Below are positions 999-24,626 of a DNA stretch of 24,839 nt, in pieces. The DNA comes from a virus. The stretch is from positions 1-24,839 of IMG/VR virus record IMGVR_UViG_3300021961_000597, one strand, 5' to 3'. The notes under the pieces are model-generated. The model saw nothing but the letters and a program-made list of their open reading frames with translations. It was not told the origin of the DNA and did not search any database. The position numbers were made by a program, and so were the translations under genes. The number at the start of each line of letters is the position of its first letter. Position 1 is the first letter of the stretch.

Positions 999-1250
999 AT
1001 GGCTAGGGATTACAAGAAGGAATATGACACCTATCATTCTTCTTCAGAGCAAAAAAAGAACCGGGCAAAACGTAATGCTGCCCGTAAAGAGATGGCTAAG
1101 GCTGGTCGTGTTGCCAAGGGTGATGGCATGGAGGTTGACCACAAACTAGCTATTAAGAATGGCGGTGGTAACTCTAAAGAAAATCTTCGCGTTGTAGATA
1201 AAAAGAAAAATCGTGGATGGCGCAAAGGTAAAACTGGGTACACGCCATGA
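999..1250 (+). CDS. small HNH-endonuclease-like protein
   Basis: An 83-residue, strongly basic protein. Its second half (about residues 45-72) has the layout of an HNH/beta-beta-alpha nuclease: EVDH at 45-48, a Gly-rich turn, then KENL at 60-63 and an Asn at 71 where the last H or N of the motif would sit. It has no CxxC zinc pairs. GGGAGGA sits 8 bases upstream of the ATG, and its stop overlaps the next start (ATGA). It could be a nicking or homing-type nuclease; being only a few hundred bases from the methyltransferase insertion makes that worth noting. The activity is inferred. Confidence 0.65.
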   Translation: MARDYKKEYDTYHSSSEQKKNRAKRNAARKEMAKAGRVAKGDGMEVDHKLAIKNGGGNSKENLRVVDKKKNRGWRKGKTGYTP

Positions 1251-1543
1251 CAAAGATAGTGTTGGTAGAATGGTATGATGCACAATCAGGATCTTCTGAA
1301 TGGAAGGAAATGAAAGAGGTTGTATCACTAAAGCCAGCACTAGGTAAGACTGTTGGATATCTTGTCAGCGAAGGAAAAGTTGACAAGATGCCTTACATAG
1401 TGGTATGTCCTCATATTGTAGGGATTGGTGATAAAGCTGTCGATGGTGACGGCGAACTAGCCATTCCAAAAGCATGGATTAAGAAAATAACTGTTCTACT
1501 TGACGATAAGGATGTCAAAGATGAATATCTTCTATTTTTTTAA
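1247..1543 (+). CDS. conserved-looking hypothetical protein with altered C-terminus
   Basis: I do not recognise this 98-residue protein. It starts in an ATGA overlap with the HNH-like gene, which supports the start. Its last 22 codons are the first copy of a 66-bp direct repeat. In the second copy (2615-2680) the same frame would continue after DEYLL as SSKRR and stop, whereas here it ends DEYLLFF. The present C-terminus therefore appears to have been created by insertion of the methyltransferase cassette. The change is only a few residues, so the protein may still be functional. Confidence 0.8.
   Translation: MTKIVLVEWYDAQSGSSEWKEMKEVVSLKPALGKTVGYLVSEGKVDKMPYIVVCPHIVGIGDKAVDGDGELAIPKAWIKKITVLLDDKDVKDEYLLFF
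1470..1535 (+). repeat. 66-bp direct repeat, copy 1
   Basis: It is identical to 2615-2680 except for one base (G at 1483, T at 2628). It covers the end of the 1247-1543 gene plus the ribosome site and first 15 bases of the gene that now starts at 2666. The two copies bracket the methyltransferase gene. Confidence 0.95.
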
Positions 1544-1574
1544 GTATAATAAGCAGATAGAAACAGCCTTTTAA
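1521..1574 (+). pseudogene. orphaned start of the downstream gene, now a 17-residue leader ORF
   Basis: Copy 1 of the repeat still carries the AAGGA site and the start codon of the gene that now begins at 2666. From that ATG the frame reads MNIFY as in the real gene, then diverges and stops at 1572-1574 after 17 residues. The stop is 17 bases before the methyltransferase ATG, so ribosomes ending there could be passed on to it. Translation of this remnant has not been shown; it is visible only as a start signal with an open frame. Confidence 0.55.
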
Positions 1575-2614
1575 TGATTTCGGAATGAAAAATGACACAA
1601 CAAAAAACGAAAGCACCTCGCAATCGAACATTAACGATTTTAGATTCAGAAAAAGATAATTTGGTCAAACGAATTGTTTCAAAAAATCAGTTAAGTTCTA
1701 TTGATAACTTTCAAAATAAAATTGTGAATTGTAATTACAAAGACGCAATATCCAAAATTACGGACAGTAGCATCAATCTTCTTATCTTAGACCCGCCGTA
1801 TAATTTGAATAAAAAGTTCAATTCGTTGAGTTTTTCTAAAACTTCTATAGGCCAATACACGTCTTATTTAGAGGATATTCTCTCTACATTTCTTCCTAAA
1901 CTCAAAGTGGATGCATCTGTTTACATTTGCGGCGATTGGTACAGTTCCATATCAATTTATGAGGCGGCTTCAAAATTTTTCAAAATCAGAAATCGAATTA
2001 CGTGGGAACGAGAAAAAGGTAGAGGGGCAAAAACTAATTGGAAAAATTGTAGCGAAGACATTTGGTTTTGTACCGTAGGTGATGAATACATTTTCAATGT
2101 GGACTATGTAAAACTAAGACGTTCCGTTATCGCACCATATAAAGAAGATGGAAAACCAAAAGATTGGATGGATTCTGATAACGGAAAGTTCAGAGACACA
2201 GCACCTTCAAACTTAATGTCTGACATAACAATACCTTTTTGGTCTATGCTAGAAAATACCGATCATCCCACACAAAAAAGTGAAAAATTGATTGCCAAAT
2301 TAATTTTAGCAAGTTCGAATGAAGAAGATTTAGTGTGTGATCCGTTTTTAGGTAGTGGCACCACAGCAGTCGTTTCTAAGAAATTGAAACGCAACTTTTT
2401 AGCATTTGAGCAAGAAAATGAATATTGTTTGTGGTCCCAAAAGAGACTTAACCAAGCCGATGAGGATATGACAATACAAGGATATAGTGACAATGTTTTT
2501 TGGGAAAGAAACACATTGTCACTTCAGAAAAAGCGTCAAAAAACAAGAGAAGTCACTAAAGAATACCAAAAATCATTAAATGTCTAAAAGTTGGCGTAGA
2601 TAATTTTTGGCATT
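1536..2614 (+). mobile_element. methyltransferase insertion cassette between direct repeats
   Basis: The DNA between the two 66-bp repeat copies holds one gene, a DNA methyltransferase, and about 80 bp of AT-rich flank. Removing the cassette with one repeat copy would restore two overlapping genes in the style of the rest of this operon. There is no transposase, integrase or inverted terminal repeat, so this looks like a phage moron acquired by recombination rather than an insertion sequence. A TATAAT lies at 1545-1550, but without a good -35 box. Confidence 0.65.
1592..2587 (+). CDS. beta-class DNA adenine/cytosine-N4 methyltransferase
   Basis: This 331-residue protein is an AdoMet-dependent amino-methyltransferase. 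The catalytic motif DPPY is at residues 67-70, and the AdoMet-binding motif DPFLGSGTT is near the C-terminus at 250-258, preceded by HPTQKS at 225-230. The order catalytic motif, recognition region, AdoMet motif defines the beta group. DPPY is most often N6-adenine but does not exclude N4-cytosine. No restriction enzyme gene adjoins it, so protection from host restriction or epigenetic control is more likely than a restriction-modification pair. The recognition sequence cannot be read from the protein. The gene looks more AT-rich than its left neighbours, which fits recent transfer. Confidence 0.92.
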   Translation: MTQQKTKAPRNRTLTILDSEKDNLVKRIVSKNQLSSIDNFQNKIVNCNYKDAISKITDSSINLLILDPPYNLNKKFNSLSFSKTSIGQYTSYLEDILSTFLPKLKVDASVYICGDWYSSISIYEAASKFFKIRNRITWEREKGRGAKTNWKNCSEDIWFCTVGDEYIFNVDYVKLRRSVIAPYKEDGKPKDWMDSDNGKFRDTAPSNLMSDITIPFWSMLENTDHPTQKSEKLIAKLILASSNEEDLVCDPFLGSGTTAVVSKKLKRNFLAFEQENEYCLWSQKRLNQADEDMTIQGYSDNVFWERNTLSLQKKRQKTREVTKEYQKSLNV

Positions 2615-2680
2615 AAGCATGGATTAATAAAATAACTGTTCTACTTGACGATAAGGATGTCAAAGATGAATATCTTCTAT
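2615..2680 (+). repeat. 66-bp direct repeat, copy 2
   Basis: Second copy of 1470-1535 with one mismatch. It supplies the AAGGA ribosome site (2653-2657) and start codon of the gene at 2666. The coding frame of the upstream gene can still be followed through it to a TAA just beyond the repeat, showing the ancestral overlap of the two genes. Confidence 0.95.
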
Positions 2681-3160
2681 CTAGCAAAAGACGCTAAAGT
2701 TTGTGCAGCTTATCACAACGATAAGCATGTAGTAAAGATGATTCTTGAATCTGCACAGCTTTTGTCTACAGCCCATCATATCATTGATGGTGAGCCGTCT
2801 ATTGACTGTTACAAGGCAACCCATAAAAACCATCCAAGTGCTATTTGGGCTAGGGAATCAGGCCGTAACTACGAATGGCTTTGGTGCCTTACTAAAAATC
2901 TTTGTAAAGAATATACTCGACGTTACAATAAAGTTCATAAGGTTGAAGAGTCTGGACTTCTTAATCGTCTTGCCAATCGTCCTTATGAACTAAACCTTGG
3001 TGAGTTTACTGATCCTCCGCAGTGTATGCCGGATAAATACAAAGTTGAAGGAGATTCAGTACAGGCTTATCGTAACTATTACATTGGAGACAAGGCTGGA
3101 TTTTCTAAATGGTATAAGAAAGAAGATATGAAACCTTCATGGTGGACAGAAGCTGCATAA
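2666..3160 (+). CDS. conserved phage protein of unknown function (MNIFYL family)
   Basis: A 164-residue protein. ATG 2666 is chosen because AAGGA lies 8 bases upstream and related phage proteins, as I recall them, begin MNIFxL. The N-terminal third has an H-x2-K-H-x2-KM-x2-E-x-AQLL pattern (residues 20-36) rich in conserved-looking His and Lys; the C-terminal part has several Trp and Tyr. Such proteins occur in many phages and are annotated inconsistently, sometimes as DNA repair glycosylases, and I cannot confirm that here. Its stop overlaps the next start (TAATG). Confidence 0.8.
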   Translation: MNIFYLAKDAKVCAAYHNDKHVVKMILESAQLLSTAHHIIDGEPSIDCYKATHKNHPSAIWARESGRNYEWLWCLTKNLCKEYTRRYNKVHKVEESGLLNRLANRPYELNLGEFTDPPQCMPDKYKVEGDSVQAYRNYYIGDKAGFSKWYKKEDMKPSWWTEAA

Positions 3161-3843: not shown

Positions 3844-3976
3844 TGATCTTAAAAAATATCAAATTGAAAATATGGTTTTTCAAGCTAAACAAACAACTAA
3901 AGATGCTTTACTTTTTGTTAAAGTATTTGTAGCTTTAGGTATAGCTATTAGTTTAATTAGTCTGGTATTAAAATAA
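3836..3976 (+). CDS. 46-residue single-pass membrane protein
   Basis: A short ORF with GGAG 8 bases before its ATG overlaps the oxygenase end by 8 bases and the next start by one base (TAATG). It encodes a polar, charged N-terminal half and one hydrophobic helix near residues 26-45 that ends in a Lys. The packing into the operon and the good ribosome site support it as real. Its function is unknown; a small lysis-related or superinfection-related membrane protein is possible. Confidence 0.65.
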   Translation: MNNDLKKYQIENMVFQAKQTTKDALLFVKVFVALGIAISLISLVLK

Positions 3977-4610: not shown

Positions 4611-5096
4611 ATGTTCAAAGTAATTTCACTTTGGTTTGTCTTTTTTGTTTGTTTTGTCTTTTTGAGTAAAGTTTCTAGTGGTAAAGAATATAATGTTAAA
4701 CAAGTTGAGTGTCTAATTGAAGCAATTTACTTTGAAGCACGTTCAGAAAGCTTTGATGGACAACTTGCTGTAGCCAATGTAATTCTGAATAGGGTTAACA
4801 ATGAAAAGTTTCCAAGAACGATTTGCGGGGTTGTACACTACGGCCATGTTAACAAGCGTGGTATTCCTGTACGTGGTCGTTGTGCTTTTAGTTACTGGTG
4901 TGATGGCAAACCTGAACATATGGTCAACACCACTGCGTACAGAAGTGCAGCAGAAGCTGCAACACTTGCCCTTGAAGGCTTTGTGATAAAGGGACTTGAC
5001 AGAGCAACCTATTATCATGCAGATTACGTGAAGCCTGATTGGGCTGTTAAAAAAAAGTTTATCAGGAAACTTGGTACGCATCTCTTCTATAAGTGA
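4611..5096 (+). CDS. SleB-type cell wall hydrolase with signal peptide
   Basis: A 161-residue protein of the Hydrolase_2 (SleB) family of peptidoglycan-cleaving enzymes. A hydrophobic N-terminus (residues 3-19) acts as an export signal or membrane anchor. The domain follows: EAIYFEARSE at 37-46, CAFSYWCDG at 91-99, YHADYV at 135-140 and a C-terminal THLFY, all family hallmarks. GGGAGA precedes the ATG. It is separate from the M15 endolysin on the other strand, so the phage has two murein hydrolases. This one may act in lysis or in local wall opening; an export signal without other lysis genes beside it leaves this open. Confidence 0.9.
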   Translation: MFKVISLWFVFFVCFVFLSKVSSGKEYNVKQVECLIEAIYFEARSESFDGQLAVANVILNRVNNEKFPRTICGVVHYGHVNKRGIPVRGRCAFSYWCDGKPEHMVNTTAYRSAAEAATLALEGFVIKGLDRATYYHADYVKPDWAVKKKFIRKLGTHLFYK

Positions 5097-5102
5097 TATA
5101 AA

Positions 5103-5510
5103 ATGAACCTTGACAAGACGACGAGTCTTCTGCTAAAGATTGCAGAGGACATTCCAGAGCCAGTCCGAAACTATCGGCTGGCTTCTGCTATTATCTATAA
5201 GAAACAAATTGTAGGTCTGGGAGTCAACAGATATAAAACTGATCCTTTTCAGTCTAAGTATATGAAGAATCCTTATAGTATTTTTGTTCATGCGGAAATC
5301 GCAGCAATTAAAAATGCTCTAAAGAGAATTAAAGTTCTTGACTTCAGACGTAGTTCACTGGTAGTAGTAAGGGTAAAGCGGAATGAGGGTAACACACAGT
5401 TCATACCAGCCCTATCCAAACCTTGTGTTGGATGTATGTCTTGTATATATGAGTTTGGTATCAGAGAGGTGTTTTTTATAAACTCAGATGGCTTTTTGGA
5501 TAAATTATAA
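5103..5510 (+). CDS. second cytidine/deoxycytidylate deaminase-like protein
   Basis: A 135-residue zinc deaminase of the CDA superfamily, with HAE at residues 63-65 and PCVGC at 107-111 as the zinc and catalytic motifs. It differs clearly from the dCMP deaminase at 117-569: it lacks the GYNGTPSG loop and has a different N-terminus. It lies directly before thyX, so a role in making dUMP from cytosine nucleotides is plausible, but base, nucleoside or nucleotide specificity cannot be read from the motifs. Confidence 0.8.
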   Translation: MNLDKTTSLLLKIAEDIPEPVRNYRLASAIIYKKQIVGLGVNRYKTDPFQSKYMKNPYSIFVHAEIAAIKNALKRIKVLDFRRSSLVVVRVKRNEGNTQFIPALSKPCVGCMSCIYEFGIREVFFINSDGFLDKL

Positions 5511-5530: not shown

Positions 5531-6184
5531 ATGAAAGTAGAGTTTGTAGATTCTATGGGTACAGATCTTACTGTCTGTAATTCAGCTAGGGTATCGTTTG
5601 ATAAACAGGCTGAGTGGGATATTCTTGATGGGCAGAAAGTTTTAAAGTTCTGTGATAAGAAGCTGATTGAATATCTTGCGAACCATGACCACTTTACGCC
5701 GTTCACACATTGTGCTATTACTTTACGAGAGACTGTGCCAATCTTCGTAGCTAGGCAGAGGTTCAAACATACAGTAGGATTTAGTTATAATGAAGTATCT
5801 CGTCGGTATGTAGATACCACCCCAGACTTCTATAAACCAAAGCATTGGCGTAAACGTGCAGAGAACAAGAAGCAAGGCAGTAGCGAAGAGGTTGTTAAAG
5901 TAAAGGTTAAGGACTACGAAAATGCCGTCAAGACATGCATCAGCCTGTATGAAGACCTTTTAAGCCAAGGCGTGTGTCCAGAGCAAGCTAGAATGATCCT
6001 GCCACAGTCTATGTACACCAGTTACTACGTCACAGGTTCTTTGTTTGCTTTTGCCCGTGCCTATATGCTAAGGTCATCTCCTGACGCACAGGCTGAAATT
6101 AGAGAACTTGCGGAAGACTGGAATAAAATTATTAGTAAAATATTTCCGGTGTCTTGGAAAGCATTAAGAAAGAGGACTAAATAA
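5531..6184 (+). CDS. thyX: flavin-dependent thymidylate synthase
   Basis: A 217-residue ThyX, which makes dTMP from dUMP using FAD, NADPH and methylene-tetrahydrofolate. The signature RHR-x7-S appears as RQR-x7-S at residues 75-85, followed by YNEVSRRY. His to Gln at the middle position is conservative, but it is a change in the motif that gives the family its name. The segment FTPFTH at 55-60 is also typical. AGAGGT precedes the ATG. Its stop overlaps the next start. It completes the dTTP route with the deaminases and the reductase. Confidence 0.95.
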   Translation: MKVEFVDSMGTDLTVCNSARVSFDKQAEWDILDGQKVLKFCDKKLIEYLANHDHFTPFTHCAITLRETVPIFVARQRFKHTVGFSYNEVSRRYVDTTPDFYKPKHWRKRAENKKQGSSEEVVKVKVKDYENAVKTCISLYEDLLSQGVCPEQARMILPQSMYTSYYVTGSLFAFARAYMLRSSPDAQAEIRELAEDWNKIISKIFPVSWKALRKRTK

Positions 6185-16648: not shown

Positions 16649-17410
16649 ATGTTCCTAAAAAAGCCAACAATTTACATAGGTTACGACCCTACAGAAGAAA
16701 TCTATTGCGAAGTACTTAAGAAGTCTATTGAGGCTAATACCAAAGATAGCTATAATATTGTACCTATTGTACAATCTGAGGTACGCAGGGCTGGCCTTTA
16801 CTGGCGCAGCGGGGAACTAACAGAATCTGGTGTTGTAGATACTTTTGATCGTAAGCCCTTTTCCACAGAGTTTAGCTTTACACGTTTTCTAGCCCCTATG
16901 CTAAACCAGTATAGTGGGCTTGCTTTATTTATGGATTGTGATATGTATGTACGATCAGATATCACAGAAATCTTTGATACACATGGCTCCAATCGTAACG
17001 TAGCAATTAGCTGCGTAAAACACGACTATGCACCAGCAGAATCTACAAAGATGGGTGGTAAAGTTCAGACTGTGTATAACCGAAAGAACTGGTCTTCTTT
17101 TGTTTTGTGGAACTGTGACCATCCTAAAGTAAAAGAACTTACCACTGGTGACGTAAACACAAAGACCGGCTCATGGCTACATGGATTCTATTGGCTTGAA
17201 TCAGAATTTATTGGTAATATCAAGCAAGAGTGGAACTGGCTTGATGGACATAGCGCAGAGAACATTGAACCTAAGAATGTTCACTTCACTACTGGTGGTC
17301 CTATCTATAAAGATTGGAAGCCTACCCGCGAAGTTGATGGTAAGTATGCTAAGGAGTGGAAGGACTTTTATTTAGATAAATTAAAGGTAAAGAAAAAGAA
17401 ACATGATTAA
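16649..17410 (+). CDS. glycosyltransferase, GT-A fold (GT8-like)
   Basis: A 253-residue protein with an N-terminal IYIGYDP strand and loop and a DCD metal/nucleotide-sugar motif at residues 96-98 (LFMDCDMYV), as in GT8-like retaining glycosyltransferases. No membrane segment is seen, so it is probably cytoplasmic. The end overlaps the next gene by 8 bases. Sugar donor and acceptor are unknown; phage virion proteins, host surface glycans or modified DNA bases are all possible. Confidence 0.8.
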   Translation: MFLKKPTIYIGYDPTEEIYCEVLKKSIEANTKDSYNIVPIVQSEVRRAGLYWRSGELTESGVVDTFDRKPFSTEFSFTRFLAPMLNQYSGLALFMDCDMYVRSDITEIFDTHGSNRNVAISCVKHDYAPAESTKMGGKVQTVYNRKNWSSFVLWNCDHPKVKELTTGDVNTKTGSWLHGFYWLESEFIGNIKQEWNWLDGHSAENIEPKNVHFTTGGPIYKDWKPTREVDGKYAKEWKDFYLDKLKVKKKKHD

Positions 17411-19052
17411 TTTTGTAACTTCATTTAGCCCAGATGGCTATAAAACCTATGCCAAGGATATGCTCCTCTCAGTTATTGAGAACTGGAAGGACGATCTTAA
17501 ACTAACAGCATACTACCACGACTTTACGGAAGATCTAATTGCTGATCTACCAAAGTCTTCTCAGATTGAATATCGTAATTTGAACGATGTTCAAGATATG
17601 CTAGACTATCGTGATCGTATGAAGCTTTATGATGGCACGATGGGTGGTAAAACGCCTTACAATTGGCGTATGGATGCCATTAAGTGGTGCCATAAGGTCT
17701 ATGCCATGACAGACTGTGCTTTTAAGCTTGGCGATGATATGGCAGATGCTGGCTGGCTAGTGTGGTTAGATGCAGATACAATTACAACAAAACCCCTGTC
17801 AGAAGAAAAGCTGCTAAAGATTTTTCCAGATAAAGCAGAACTTGTCTATCTTGGTCGAAAAGATGTTGACTACAGTGAGACTTCTTTCGTAGCTTTTAAT
17901 ATCAGTAGCGAATCACCTTACTGCCTACTTGGTGATCTTCGTGGCTGTTATGATATTGGTGAAGTTATTTCATATCGTGAGTGGCATGATGGCTTTATCT
18001 TTGATCGTCTACTAAAGATTTACATTGCTCATGGATTACGTGCACATAATCTAACTCCTAACGTAGACGGACTAGCCGCCTTTGCACAGTCAGAACTGTC
18101 TCAGTACATGACACACTTCAAAGGTAATCTCAAGAATGTACCAAAGGATGCTTTAAAGAATATACCAAAAGATAGAGTACCTATTGTTGTACGTCCAAAA
18201 GACTGTATGCCAAAAGACTATATTATCAATAATGTCAATCAAAACTTAAAGCTTATTAAAAATTGGGGTATTTCTAAATCGTGTAGGCCAAATCCAGAGC
18301 ATGCAATCATTGTTTCTGCTGGCCCTTCTACAGACTTTCAAGAACTTAGGCGTGTTATAAAGCAAACAAATGGTGTTGTACTTAGTGTAAAGCATAGTTA
18401 TCCTAAGCTTCTAAAAGAAAACATCCATCAGTGGGGTTGTATCATTCTTGATCCTCGTCCTATTGATGGTATATCAACACATGGTATTCTTCGTAAAGAT
18501 CTGTTTGAGACAGTAGATTCAACTACTAACTTCTTTGTCGCCTCAATGACCGATCCTTCAGTTACTAAACATCTTATGGAACGAACCAAGAACATTCATG
18601 GCTGGCATGCATATTCAGATGCTGTTCGTGAAGCTACACAAAATCCAAAGATGTTTGAGATTTCCAGTGAAGCAAACATTCCAAAGGATACTACCTTTGT
18701 AACTGGTGGAACCTGTGCTGCAATGCGAGGCTTTGGTCTTATGCACATTCTAGGCTTCCGTAACTTTCATCTATTTGGCTTTGACTGTAATGTGACAGGG
18801 CTTACAGACGATCAGAAGAAGGAAAGGCTAGACGATAAACCAAAGTACATTCCTGTTGAAACTAATGGTGAGAAGTTCTGGACTACAGGAGAACTTCTAG
18901 CTATGGCACAGGATTGTGAACGACTGTTTAACAACAAGACTATTGATGCTAATATCAAGCTATATGGTTCTGGTACACTGGTTTCTGAAGTATTCAAAAA
19001 CTCTTTCCATGCCAATCTACCTTACTTCCTAGACTACTTTGAGAGTAAATAA
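17403..19052 (+). CDS. two-domain protein: glycosyltransferase-like plus DUF115/MAF-like
   Basis: A 549-residue protein. Residues about 1-240 look like a GT-A glycosyltransferase, with LVWLDADT at 119-126 giving a DxD motif. A linker with a short repeat (NVPKDALKNIPKD, 245-257) leads to a second domain from about 300, beginning HAIIVSAGPS and containing a Gly-rich turn and a later ILGFRNFHLFGFD segment, as in the DUF115/MAF_flag10 family of flagellin glycosylation proteins. The fusion is not one I recognise as standard. Domain calls are by eye. Confidence 0.65.
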   Translation: MINFVTSFSPDGYKTYAKDMLLSVIENWKDDLKLTAYYHDFTEDLIADLPKSSQIEYRNLNDVQDMLDYRDRMKLYDGTMGGKTPYNWRMDAIKWCHKVYAMTDCAFKLGDDMADAGWLVWLDADTITTKPLSEEKLLKIFPDKAELVYLGRKDVDYSETSFVAFNISSESPYCLLGDLRGCYDIGEVISYREWHDGFIFDRLLKIYIAHGLRAHNLTPNVDGLAAFAQSELSQYMTHFKGNLKNVPKDALKNIPKDRVPIVVRPKDCMPKDYIINNVNQNLKLIKNWGISKSCRPNPEHAIIVSAGPSTDFQELRRVIKQTNGVVLSVKHSYPKLLKENIHQWGCIILDPRPIDGISTHGILRKDLFETVDSTTNFFVASMTDPSVTKHLMERTKNIHGWHAYSDAVREATQNPKMFEISSEANIPKDTTFVTGGTCAAMRGFGLMHILGFRNFHLFGFDCNVTGLTDDQKKERLDDKPKYIPVETNGEKFWTTGELLAMAQDCERLFNNKTIDANIKLYGSGTLVSEVFKNSFHANLPYFLDYFESK

Positions 19053-20744: not shown

Positions 20745-23700
20745 TTACCCTCCTATTTTAATATCTGGTGGTTCACCATATAGATCAGCCCCACGGTAAT
20801 AATTTTCTATTTCATTAAATAAACCACGTAGTTTTTGTAATTCATCTGCATTAAAACCACCCACTTTATTTTCCATACTTTTTCTGATATCTGTCCAATA
20901 GTTACCTTCAGAAGATAATCTTTGTGGTGTAAAACTTCTCCTTACTATACCATTTATAACATTTTGTGATGGAGCAACACCAGATAAATCTTTCAATTTA
21001 TATATTCTATCAATTTCATTTCTTGACATAAAATAATAAAGAGTATCGTCCAGTTTACGAAGATTCTTCTGATACTCAAACTGTGCCTTTAATGCAGCAT
21101 CATATTCTTTACCCATGTCTTGGAAAGTATATGAACTAGTAGGATCAGATAGAGTTGAAGTCAGTTTTTGTTTAAAGTTATTCCAAGAAATTCTAGATGG
21201 TTCCGAAATTTCTTTAAGTGCAAAGCCAGTAAACTTTCTTGGATCAATACTCTTTACAGATAAACCCAAGTTATCCATTGCGTTTGTTGAAATCCAATCA
21301 ATGGGATTATCAGTTCTTTTAGGCATACCACCAAAGCTTCTTGGATTTAATGCCCTATCTAATGCTGAAAATGTGGTATTATCTGTTATACCCGTACTGG
21401 TTATAGCATTTCTAAATGATTTTACTATACCCGGTTCAACTAATTTATAAGTATTTAAAGCAGCATCTCCAGCAGCTACTCTTGGATTTGTTATTGCATT
21501 AGCAATGTTATCACCAATTTGTACAATAAATGTTGGATCTAAGTATGGTTCATAAAGTTTTTTTGCAGCATACTTAATACTTTCATCAATGTCTTTAGAT
21601 ACATCTTGACCCATAGCTGCTTTTGATAAAATTGGCATAAAAGCACCAAATATATAATGATCTGGATCCATATAACTTAGATTAATATAGTCTGGAAGAC
21701 CATATTTATTTAAACCAACACCAATAAGAGTATCGTTTCTCTCGTAAGGTGATATAATATTTGATTGCTTTAATTTTTCTATAGCTTCAGTCATCCCCAT
21801 TGCTTCATTAAAAGCAACTGCACCCCCATAAATACCCATTCTAGTTGCGTACCAAGACATAAGACGTTCAATACCTCTACGTTGAAGAGTCTTATTTCCT
21901 GTTTCAAAACCCATACGCATTTCATTAGTAGCTGTTTTAAATAGGTTATGTGTGTTTCGCAGACGTTCAGTTACGAAGCCAGTAAAGTTTCCAATTACAG
22001 GAATTGCACTACTTTTTTCTAGAACAGTTGCAATACGACTATAAACAGGGGCTAGATTATTTACATTTTTAGTTGCTTCTTCACTTAGATAAGCCATCTC
22101 CTTTGCCATATCTCTAAAAGATAAGGCTTGGTTATTATATTCATTTCTAAACTTTCTTAGTAACTGATTTCTTTCTGCCCTATTAAAATTTCTAACAAGC
22201 ATATCTTGTTGATCAGCTATAAGTTCTGGGAAATCTCTTTCAAAATTATTTAGAGTTTGAATTTTAATATTTGGATCTGGATAATCATTGAGAATTTTTT
22301 TCAAATTCTGACGTTCATTATAATAAATACCAGTCTTAAAGAAATCGTCGCCATAACCATAAATATTTTTTGCAGTCTTGGTTACTTTTAAATCAGCTAA
22401 CTTTGACGCAAATGAATCTGAATCTATATTTTGAATGTCTCTAATTCGTTTATTTAGTTGTCCTAAATCAACATTAGAACCTAATACACCAGTATTCTTT
22501 AATTGTTTTTCAAATACTTTTTGGTCTAATGGATCTAGACTTCTAAAACTGCTTAAACCACTTAGTACTCCGGGCATATTTCCAGAAGAAGAGGTATAAA
22601 ATAAAGAACTTCCAAAGTTTCTTACAACACCGGGAGGGTTATAAACTGTTTTACCAGTTTTAATTCCTGTTTGTAATTTGTATATATTTCTTAATGTCCA
22701 ACCACCAAGACCTTCACTATACAAAGCTTTATCAAAAATACCAACAGGATCATAAAAATTCTTTATCTTATCTGCGAAGTCTTTTTTAACCCATACGTTT
22801 TTAAGATCATCTGTAAATAGTTTTGTATACGGAGCAGAGAACACAGCTTTATCATTACCGGGATCAACCAGTTTAACTAGATCAGTTGTTCCTAATGCAC
22901 GTACCGCGTCATCTTTGGTAGCAGATCTAAAAGCTTCATTTATCTTTATAGCTTCTTTTGCAAAACCATTAGCCATTCTGCTCTTAGATGTTGTATCCAT
23001 CATGCCAGTAATAGATTCAAAAATACGTTGTGTTGGACGTTCATTTAACCCAATAATTTTTGAGTATGCGGGAGGAAATGCTCCTCTAGAACTAAACACA
23101 TTTTCATTACGTCTACTACCAGTTAATGGTTCGTATAAATCTTTAACGTATTTTTCTACTATTTCATCAACTCTTTGTTGAGGAAATGAAATATTCCCTT
23201 TTGCATCAGTAAAGTTTTCCCAGATATATTTAAAATCTTCGTTGGGATTTTGTACGCCACGCTGTAATTGGCTAAAGTAAGAATTTTTATCTTGAAGAAT
23301 AATAGCTTGCATATCAGAAACAATTGATGGATTTTGTTGTACAAATTCATCAAATGGAACAGACCGTTTTTTACCAATATAACGAGTAGCTACATTTCGT
23401 AAATAGTTATTATTATTTACAAATGTATTTAAACCTTGCTGATTTAAATTAGATCTTAGACCATAAGCACTTGCTTCTGGAATAAGTTCATTTCTTAGTA
23501 CACCAATGTCATTAGCCAGATCATTAGAAAGCTGCCTTACCTGTTGTATAGCAGCAGGATTATTTTCTAAAGCATCGTTCATAAGACGTACTTGTTGTGG
23601 TGTCCATTTAGCTTCTGGTGCGTTGAATACTTTTTCAGCTTTTTCTAGAATGGACTTTTGAAGATCTGCTCCTTTTTCTCCTAAAGAATAAGTTATAGCA

Positions 23701-24626
23701 TTTTCACGTTCCATTACACGGCTGAAATTTTCATTTAAACCGCCAGAAGGAAGTAGATTTTTTTCTAAGATTGGCTTAACTTTAAAATATTCTAATGCAT
23801 TACCAATGCCTTTAGAAGCATAACTACCAATAAGATCTAAAGTAAGACCAAAAGCTGGTGCCGATACACCACCAAGTAGACCAGCCCCTACAACATAATA
23901 AGGATTAATTTCTTTTGTTAAACCAATATCTTTTTCTAATTTCTGAAGCATAAGATTTTGAGTAGCTTCAGCAGTACCAGCAATGCCACCCTCAACCGCC
24001 AATGTCTTTATTACAGCAGGATTTTTTAATGCCGCCAATCTTGCGGCTAAAATACTACTACGTATAGTCACATTTGCAGCCGCTGCCCCGCCCATAGTGT
24101 ATGCAGAAGCTACAGCAGTTATAAAATTTGATGGTGAAGTAATTCCGGCCAGAGCATAATCTGTAATTGCAGATAATGTAGGTGCACCCTCAGAACTTCC
24201 AAATGAAGGCATCTTATCTAGATATGTTAAAGCTGTACGAAGCATTGCCTTTTGATCGTCATTATATTTTGACTCTTTAAATAAAGCAACACCTGTAGAT
24301 AACTCATTTACATTTATGTATCTTTGTCTAGTTAAAAATGTATCAAGAATTTGTTTAGGATCTTCACTAACAGTTTCTCCCATATCTTGCAGTGCATAAT
24401 ACATAGCAGAAATAGCATTGCTATTCTTTAACATATCATTATAAGATATTTTTTCTGGAAGACTAGCAGGGTCAGCAGACACACTTTCTCCAGTAGAAGA
24501 ACCATTGGTAGAAGGTTTATTATAACCTAGTTCTTCTATTAATTCATCCGCAGTTTTAGGACGAGAATCAGCTTGTGCTGTTTCTAGTTCATCATTCTGT
24601 GGCAATGTGTAGCTAGTGTCTGTCAT
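20745..24626 (-). CDS. giant internal virion protein (putative ejection protein)
   Basis: A 1293-residue protein, by far the largest here. It is rich in helical, charged and Asn/Gln segments with several hydrophobic Ala/Gly stretches at about residues 160-200 and 245-275. Its size, composition and place between structural genes and the lysis cassette match the large internal virion (DNA ejection) proteins of T7-like phages such as gp16. No lysozyme or transglycosylase motif is evident by eye. It is AT-rich compared with the adjacent lysis genes. The ATG at 24626 follows the upstream gene by 3 bases. The role is inferred from context. Confidence 0.7.
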   Translation of the reverse strand: MTDTSYTLPQNDELETAQADSRPKTADELIEELGYNKPSTNGSSTGESVSADPASLPEKISYNDMLKNSNAISAMYYALQDMGETVSEDPKQILDTFLTRQRYINVNELSTGVALFKESKYNDDQKAMLRTALTYLDKMPSFGSSEGAPTLSAITDYALAGITSPSNFITAVASAYTMGGAAAANVTIRSSILAARLAALKNPAVIKTLAVEGGIAGTAEATQNLMLQKLEKDIGLTKEINPYYVVGAGLLGGVSAPAFGLTLDLIGSYASKGIGNALEYFKVKPILEKNLLPSGGLNENFSRVMERENAITYSLGEKGADLQKSILEKAEKVFNAPEAKWTPQQVRLMNDALENNPAAIQQVRQLSNDLANDIGVLRNELIPEASAYGLRSNLNQQGLNTFVNNNNYLRNVATRYIGKKRSVPFDEFVQQNPSIVSDMQAIILQDKNSYFSQLQRGVQNPNEDFKYIWENFTDAKGNISFPQQRVDEIVEKYVKDLYEPLTGSRRNENVFSSRGAFPPAYSKIIGLNERPTQRIFESITGMMDTTSKSRMANGFAKEAIKINEAFRSATKDDAVRALGTTDLVKLVDPGNDKAVFSAPYTKLFTDDLKNVWVKKDFADKIKNFYDPVGIFDKALYSEGLGGWTLRNIYKLQTGIKTGKTVYNPPGVVRNFGSSLFYTSSSGNMPGVLSGLSSFRSLDPLDQKVFEKQLKNTGVLGSNVDLGQLNKRIRDIQNIDSDSFASKLADLKVTKTAKNIYGYGDDFFKTGIYYNERQNLKKILNDYPDPNIKIQTLNNFERDFPELIADQQDMLVRNFNRAERNQLLRKFRNEYNNQALSFRDMAKEMAYLSEEATKNVNNLAPVYSRIATVLEKSSAIPVIGNFTGFVTERLRNTHNLFKTATNEMRMGFETGNKTLQRRGIERLMSWYATRMGIYGGAVAFNEAMGMTEAIEKLKQSNIISPYERNDTLIGVGLNKYGLPDYINLSYMDPDHYIFGAFMPILSKAAMGQDVSKDIDESIKYAAKKLYEPYLDPTFIVQIGDNIANAITNPRVAAGDAALNTYKLVEPGIVKSFRNAITSTGITDNTTFSALDRALNPRSFGGMPKRTDNPIDWISTNAMDNLGLSVKSIDPRKFTGFALKEISEPSRISWNNFKQKLTSTLSDPTSSYTFQDMGKEYDAALKAQFEYQKNLRKLDDTLYYFMSRNEIDRIYKLKDLSGVAPSQNVINGIVRRSFTPQRLSSEGNYWTDIRKSMENKVGGFNADELQKLRGLFNEIENYYRGADLYGEPPDIKIGG

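Follow-up and report, generated by a model that had tools for sequence, protein, structure and literature searches.

A Type II methyltransferase gene inserted at a gene overlap of a podovirus-like marine phage, between 66-bp copies of its target and beside a remnant of a restriction enzyme gene

The DNA analysed here, referred to as the window, is the whole 24,839-nucleotide stretch of the viral record IMGVR_UViG_3300021961_000597, which by its gene content belongs to a podovirus-like marine phage. Comparison with related phages confirms that positions 1536-2614 are an insertion with a 66-bp target duplication. By its sequence, the insert represents part of a Type II restriction-modification (R-M) system. 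Very probably, an ancestral phage received, at the overlap of two genes here called A and B, a fragment of such a locus in which methyltransferase and nuclease stood tail to tail; two illegitimate joins are the likeliest route. The features of the locus are collected in Table 1.

Table 1. Features of the insertion locus, in window coordinates
Feature	Position	Strand	Basis
Upstream gene A, 98 aa, now ending ...EYLLFF and stop	1247-1543	+	88% identical to L002, 67-68% to L169 and L170
First 66-bp copy (copy 1) of the target duplication, with the end of gene A and an orphaned start of gene B	1470-1535	+	Repeat search; contiguous with ancestral left flank
Insert, 1,079 bp, 33.4% GC against 38.9% in the rest of the window	1536-2614	+	Absent from L002, L169 and L170
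Left end of insert, 37 bp	1536-1572		Not homologous to L082; no exact viral match to its 25-base core
Intact beta-class DNA methyltransferase, 331 aa (DPPYN and DPFLGSGTT motifs)	1592-2587	+	Pfam N6_N4_Mtase 1.3e-34; PADLOC Type II MTase 7.9e-58
Remnant of cognate restriction enzyme gene: its final 12 codons and stop, NAKNYLRQLLDI and stop	2576-2614	-	62/65 reverse-strand match to L082; translation
Second 66-bp copy (copy 2), with the ribosome site and start of gene B	2615-2680	+	Repeat search; contiguous with ancestral right flank
Downstream gene B, 164 aa, pyrimidine-dimer-glycosylase-like	2666-3160	+	PF03013 3.6e-6; phrog_624 2.6e-56; 93% identical to L002

The two copies of the direct repeat agree at 65 of 66 bases (98%), and a repeat search returned exactly the coordinates and identity given by the initial annotation of this DNA. 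The copies lie 1,145 bp apart from start to start and are the only two in the window. The longest exact direct repeat in the window measures 52 bp; 20 first-order Markov sequences matched in composition gave 13-18 bp. The sole mismatch is a G at 1483 and a T at 2628. As the related contig L002 has G at this position, the ancestral base survives in copy 1, and the change is in copy 2. The changed base sits in the copy that no longer codes for gene A.

The initial annotation had proposed that the ancestral phage had two overlapping genes that were both kept by the insertion, and it named as a check the existence of relatives in which these genes are adjacent and overlapping without the methyltransferase. 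Related viral contigs retrieved with genes A and B as queries bear this out. Three phage contigs, L002 (= L168), L169 and L170, have A and B adjacent with no methyltransferase between them, and A ends 32 nt inside B in all three. The 66-bp sequence is single-copy in these empty sites. L002 is the closest to the window, while L169 and L170 are more distant (71-73% identity in gene B) and share the same gene order. The methyltransferase was not found in the full records of the three contigs, those of L002 and L169 being short fragments. The insertion is present in only one contig, and among named phages only distant relatives of the region were found. In a block-by-block comparison of the window copies with L002 about the start of gene B, copy 1 gave 75-96% identity up to its end and 31-43% beyond it, and copy 2 gave 16-41% upstream and 86-94% downstream. 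The ancestral left side thus runs unbroken into copy 1, and copy 2 runs unbroken into the ancestral right side, which defines the sequence between them as an insert with a target duplication.

Both flanking genes remain readable. When the frame is followed across a scripted empty-site join of the flanks, the ancestral form of gene A has 101 aa and ends ...EYLLSSKRR, close to the ...EYLLPSKKS of L002. After the insertion, gene A has lost its last five residues and gained FF, with the rest kept. These two endings, FF and a stop after copy 1 and SSKRR and a stop by way of copy 2, are those that had been read at the outset. Gene A has a weak match to phrog_25889, a family of unknown function. The ATG of gene B and a Shine-Dalgarno-like AAGGA both lie within copy 2, as had also been noted, and the same ATG is present in copy 1 at 1521, where it leads nowhere.

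Elsewhere in the window, the DNA polymerase is closest to those of pelagiphages HTVC104P and HTVC103P, at 48% identity. A degenerate GGTCTG-type hexamer array occupies 1-108, at the edge of the contig and immediately ahead of a dCMP deaminase gene, and is probably an assembly break point. An S-adenosylmethionine decarboxylase-like gene (616-975) lies near two deaminase genes (117-569, 5103-5510) and ThyX (5531-6184). A 549-aa protein with an MptE-like domain (17403-19052) has no PHROG match and adjoins a possible glycosyltransferase and a small terminase gene, and a 1,293-aa ORF on the reverse strand (20745-24626) has no Pfam or PHROG match.

The insert consists of one gene only and contains no transposase, integrase or other mobility gene. 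DPPY and FxGxG motifs in beta order, together with the Pfam match, identify the encoded protein as a beta-class N6/N4 DNA methyltransferase. Compared with its closest relative, in the viral contig L082, its dN/dS is about 0.26-0.34, indicating purifying selection. With its motifs kept and this level of constraint, the enzyme is probably active. Solitary phage DNA methyltransferases serve against host restriction, and here the phage probably benefits by having its DNA shielded from the cognate nuclease. A 16-nt imperfect inverted repeat is found near the methyltransferase ends (1565-1580 / 2570-2585), not at the ends of the insert. The 25-base core of the left 37 bp of the insert has no exact match in viral contigs, and only chance matches of 12-16 bp were seen in the other loci compared.

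L082 is a 202.9-kb contig whose methyltransferase is 97% identical in DNA over window positions 1573-2589, so that homology to L082 begins 37 bp inside the left end of the insert. Several other L082 genes match PHROGs, mostly of unknown function. The L082 methyltransferase is followed on the same strand by a 368-aa gene, the product of which matches the PADLOC Type II restriction enzyme model PDLC03461 (REase_II) at 7.3e-59. An invariant E...D...KTK pattern runs through eight relatives, and E...D...(D/E)xKTK is conserved in this nuclease family. The predicted model of the L082 protein (pLDDT 82) has HincII and R.SwaI as its best PDB matches, with modest TM-scores and partial overlap. The nuclease found no match in plasmids.

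The trace of this nuclease in the window lies at the right end of the insert, where 2551-2615 matches L082 6066-6130 on the reverse strand. The C-terminus of the L082 nuclease, NAENYLRQLLDI, is matched by the window remnant NAKNYLRQLLDI and its stop. The remnant is 39 bp long, antisense to the methyltransferase, and overlaps its end by 12 bp. This position of the nuclease end implies that the donor had methyltransferase and nuclease tail to tail and that the nuclease was cut off by the junction. The L082 pair therefore resembles the window in its methyltransferase and in the nuclease C-terminus that forms the remnant, but differs in having the nuclease on the same strand as the methyltransferase and no direct duplication around the pair.

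The nuclease gene of L082 is itself flanked by 39-bp inverted repeats (4960-4998 / 6092-6130, 95% complementary). Flipping this gene would give the tail-to-tail order of the window's donor; it may be invertible, or the repeats may record an inversion with duplication. Within the family, the tail-to-tail order is found in L105 and L095, and in the viral loci L225, L227 and L228 with 4-bp overlaps. Taken with L150, these loci show methyltransferase and nuclease in three orders, head-to-tail both ways and tail-to-tail, which suggests frequent rearrangement of the family.

In the favoured account of the insertion, a fragment of a Type II R-M locus, with the methyltransferase forward and the nuclease reversed, would have been joined into the ancestral phage at the A/B overlap. 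The left junction lies just past the start of gene B and the right junction 66 bp upstream of it in phage coordinates, so that the intervening phage sequence now stands on both sides. The captured fragment includes the methyltransferase in full, but of the nuclease gene just its final 39 bp. The two joins would most likely have taken place during phage replication or break repair, either by template switching or by two genome copies each joining one end of the donor fragment. In a compact phage genome, gap-type joins would break A or B, so that only overlap-type products would survive selection. The product would be a phage with its own methyltransferase, protected against hosts with the cognate nuclease, in which neither A nor B is lost. 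We infer illegitimate recombination rather than the action of an autonomous element. Microhomology at the right junction amounts to 1 nt at most, which fits illegitimate joining and proves no route. Recombination between the 66-bp copies would plausibly restore the ancestral arrangement, making the methyltransferase a removable module.

A second case was seen in L230, an unrelated viral contig in which the nuclease beside a methyltransferase of the same family also appears to be cut off at a duplication, in a gene order different from that of the window. A 94-bp repeat, 87% identical, stands directly around the methyltransferase (3879-3972 / 5032-5125) and has only these two copies in the 50.7-kb record. 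The right-hand one includes the beginning of a gcrA-like gene (PF07750, 1.8e-9). The end of the insert, MTKTVADLLTFISEYN, is about 16 codons long and resembles nuclease starts such as MTLEDAIAFITEYK (L225, L227, L228). By position and resemblance this stub is the putative start of the nuclease. No empty-site relative of L230 was found.

The viral survey for flanking repeats covered 17 loci including L230, and repeat pairs of the L230 kind are rare, with one in 1.15 Mb of control viral loci. Among 85 loci, mostly bacterial, four had any flanking direct repeats around the methyltransferase and there was no convincing duplication. The repeats of L162 (142 bp, 97%) and L138 (53 bp) were rejected as target duplications, as they have 22 and 41 matches in their respective genomes and are dispersed repeats. 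The 36-bp repeat of L224 was also rejected, being of hairpin type with further partial copies. At L162:4543-4684, a patescibacterial methyltransferase and an HTH gene lie between two near-identical 142-bp dispersed hairpin repeats and are possibly a repeat-mobilised unit. The capture event in the window is real and well resolved, and a recurrent pattern is possible. A broader generalisation is quite doubtful: that phages repeatedly capture the methyltransferase half, with insertion duplicating 60-100 bp of target and trimming the nuclease, possibly started by restriction breaks in infecting phage DNA, the breaks being afterwards joined to the R-M locus.

It is also unlikely that a complete R-M pair came in first, making a longer duplication, and that a later deletion took out the nuclease together with the left part of copy 2. 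In that event 66 bp would be a minimum and not the original length of the duplication. The remnant is in frame and recent, and a nuclease would be of little use to a lytic phage, both of which suit such a history. However, it needs two events, and L230 is truncated likewise at its repeat boundary, which a single capture explains more simply.

The L230 case bears as well on a mobility function carried or attracted by R-M units, under which the methyltransferase would be a mobile unit inserted, in the manner of transposition, at staggered cuts 66 nt apart that were then filled in. Two family members on unrelated viral contigs lie between long unique duplications, the imperfect inverted repeat stands near the methyltransferase ends, and long target duplications of variable length accompany the insertion of some R-M units (PMC3874152). 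This account is nonetheless decidedly improbable, as the insert has no transposase or integrase, none of the 85 loci has a convincing duplication (the strongest, L162 and L138, being dispersed repeats), the inverted repeats are off the insert ends, and the cut in the nuclease falls elsewhere in L230 than in the window.

Campbell-type integration would have a circle, with one 66-bp copy and the methyltransferase, recombine into an empty phage, the original event having occurred in another phage. The same final structure is expected, and 66 bp of homology suffices for many phage recombinases. An earlier similar event would still be needed to put phage DNA beside the methyltransferase, and no such circle or other carrier was found, making this route very unlikely. 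A chimeric contig joined at the repeat is the most improbable of these readings: the insertion is known from a single metagenomic contig, but an assembler could have built it only from reads linking the methyltransferase to phage DNA on either side, the two junctions are clean, one base distinguishes the copies, and L002 homology switches exactly at the copy edges. A transposon or composite IS was rejected, as the insert has no second gene and the inverted repeats are not at its ends, as was homing by the neighbouring HNH gene (999-1250), which lies outside the insert and is also present in the empty-site L169 and L170.

The structure that two illegitimate joins would have left has a counterpart in bacteria, where the insertion of R-M genes is accompanied by target duplications that are long and variable, about 100 bp (PMC3874152). 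This pattern, insertion with long target duplication (ILTD), was described from bacterial genome comparison (Nobusato et al. 2000, Gene 259:99; Furuta et al. 2010, NAR 38:2428), and single R-M component genes appear to be mobile (Kobayashi group and colleagues), as far as the summaries in PMC3874152, PMC3031569 and PMC1643837 go. By these summaries, the window shares with ILTD an empty and an occupied site in close relatives, a long direct target duplication, an R-M gene inside and no linked transposase. The empty site is present in L002, L169 and L170; the direct repeat, of the order of 100 bp in ILTD (PMC3874152), has 66 bp at 98% identity; the insert holds R-M genes, the methyltransferase whole and the nuclease only as its 39-bp remnant; and no known mobile element is responsible. 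The window differs in its target, which is an overlap between two phage genes, and in having kept just the methyltransferase half, beside a nuclease stub at the junction.

A literature search of partial coverage found no phage precedent for ILTD. The pattern itself is already known for bacterial R-M genes, and this case adds its occurrence in a phage, a gene overlap that stays preserved and a remnant of the nuclease. Relative to the initial annotation, the origin from a truncated Type II R-M system and the second case in L230 are new. The bacterial insertion pattern is thereby extended to phages, with loss by recombination between the 66-bp repeats as an exact prediction. The window shows a phage caught in gaining what is likely an antirestriction gene: the empty sites, a close relative of the donor, the two junctions and a nuclease fossil can all be seen. 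Like the solitary methyltransferases of other phages, this one is complete and has no functional nuclease beside it, but here the capture can still be read from the empty sites, the duplication and the nuclease remnant.
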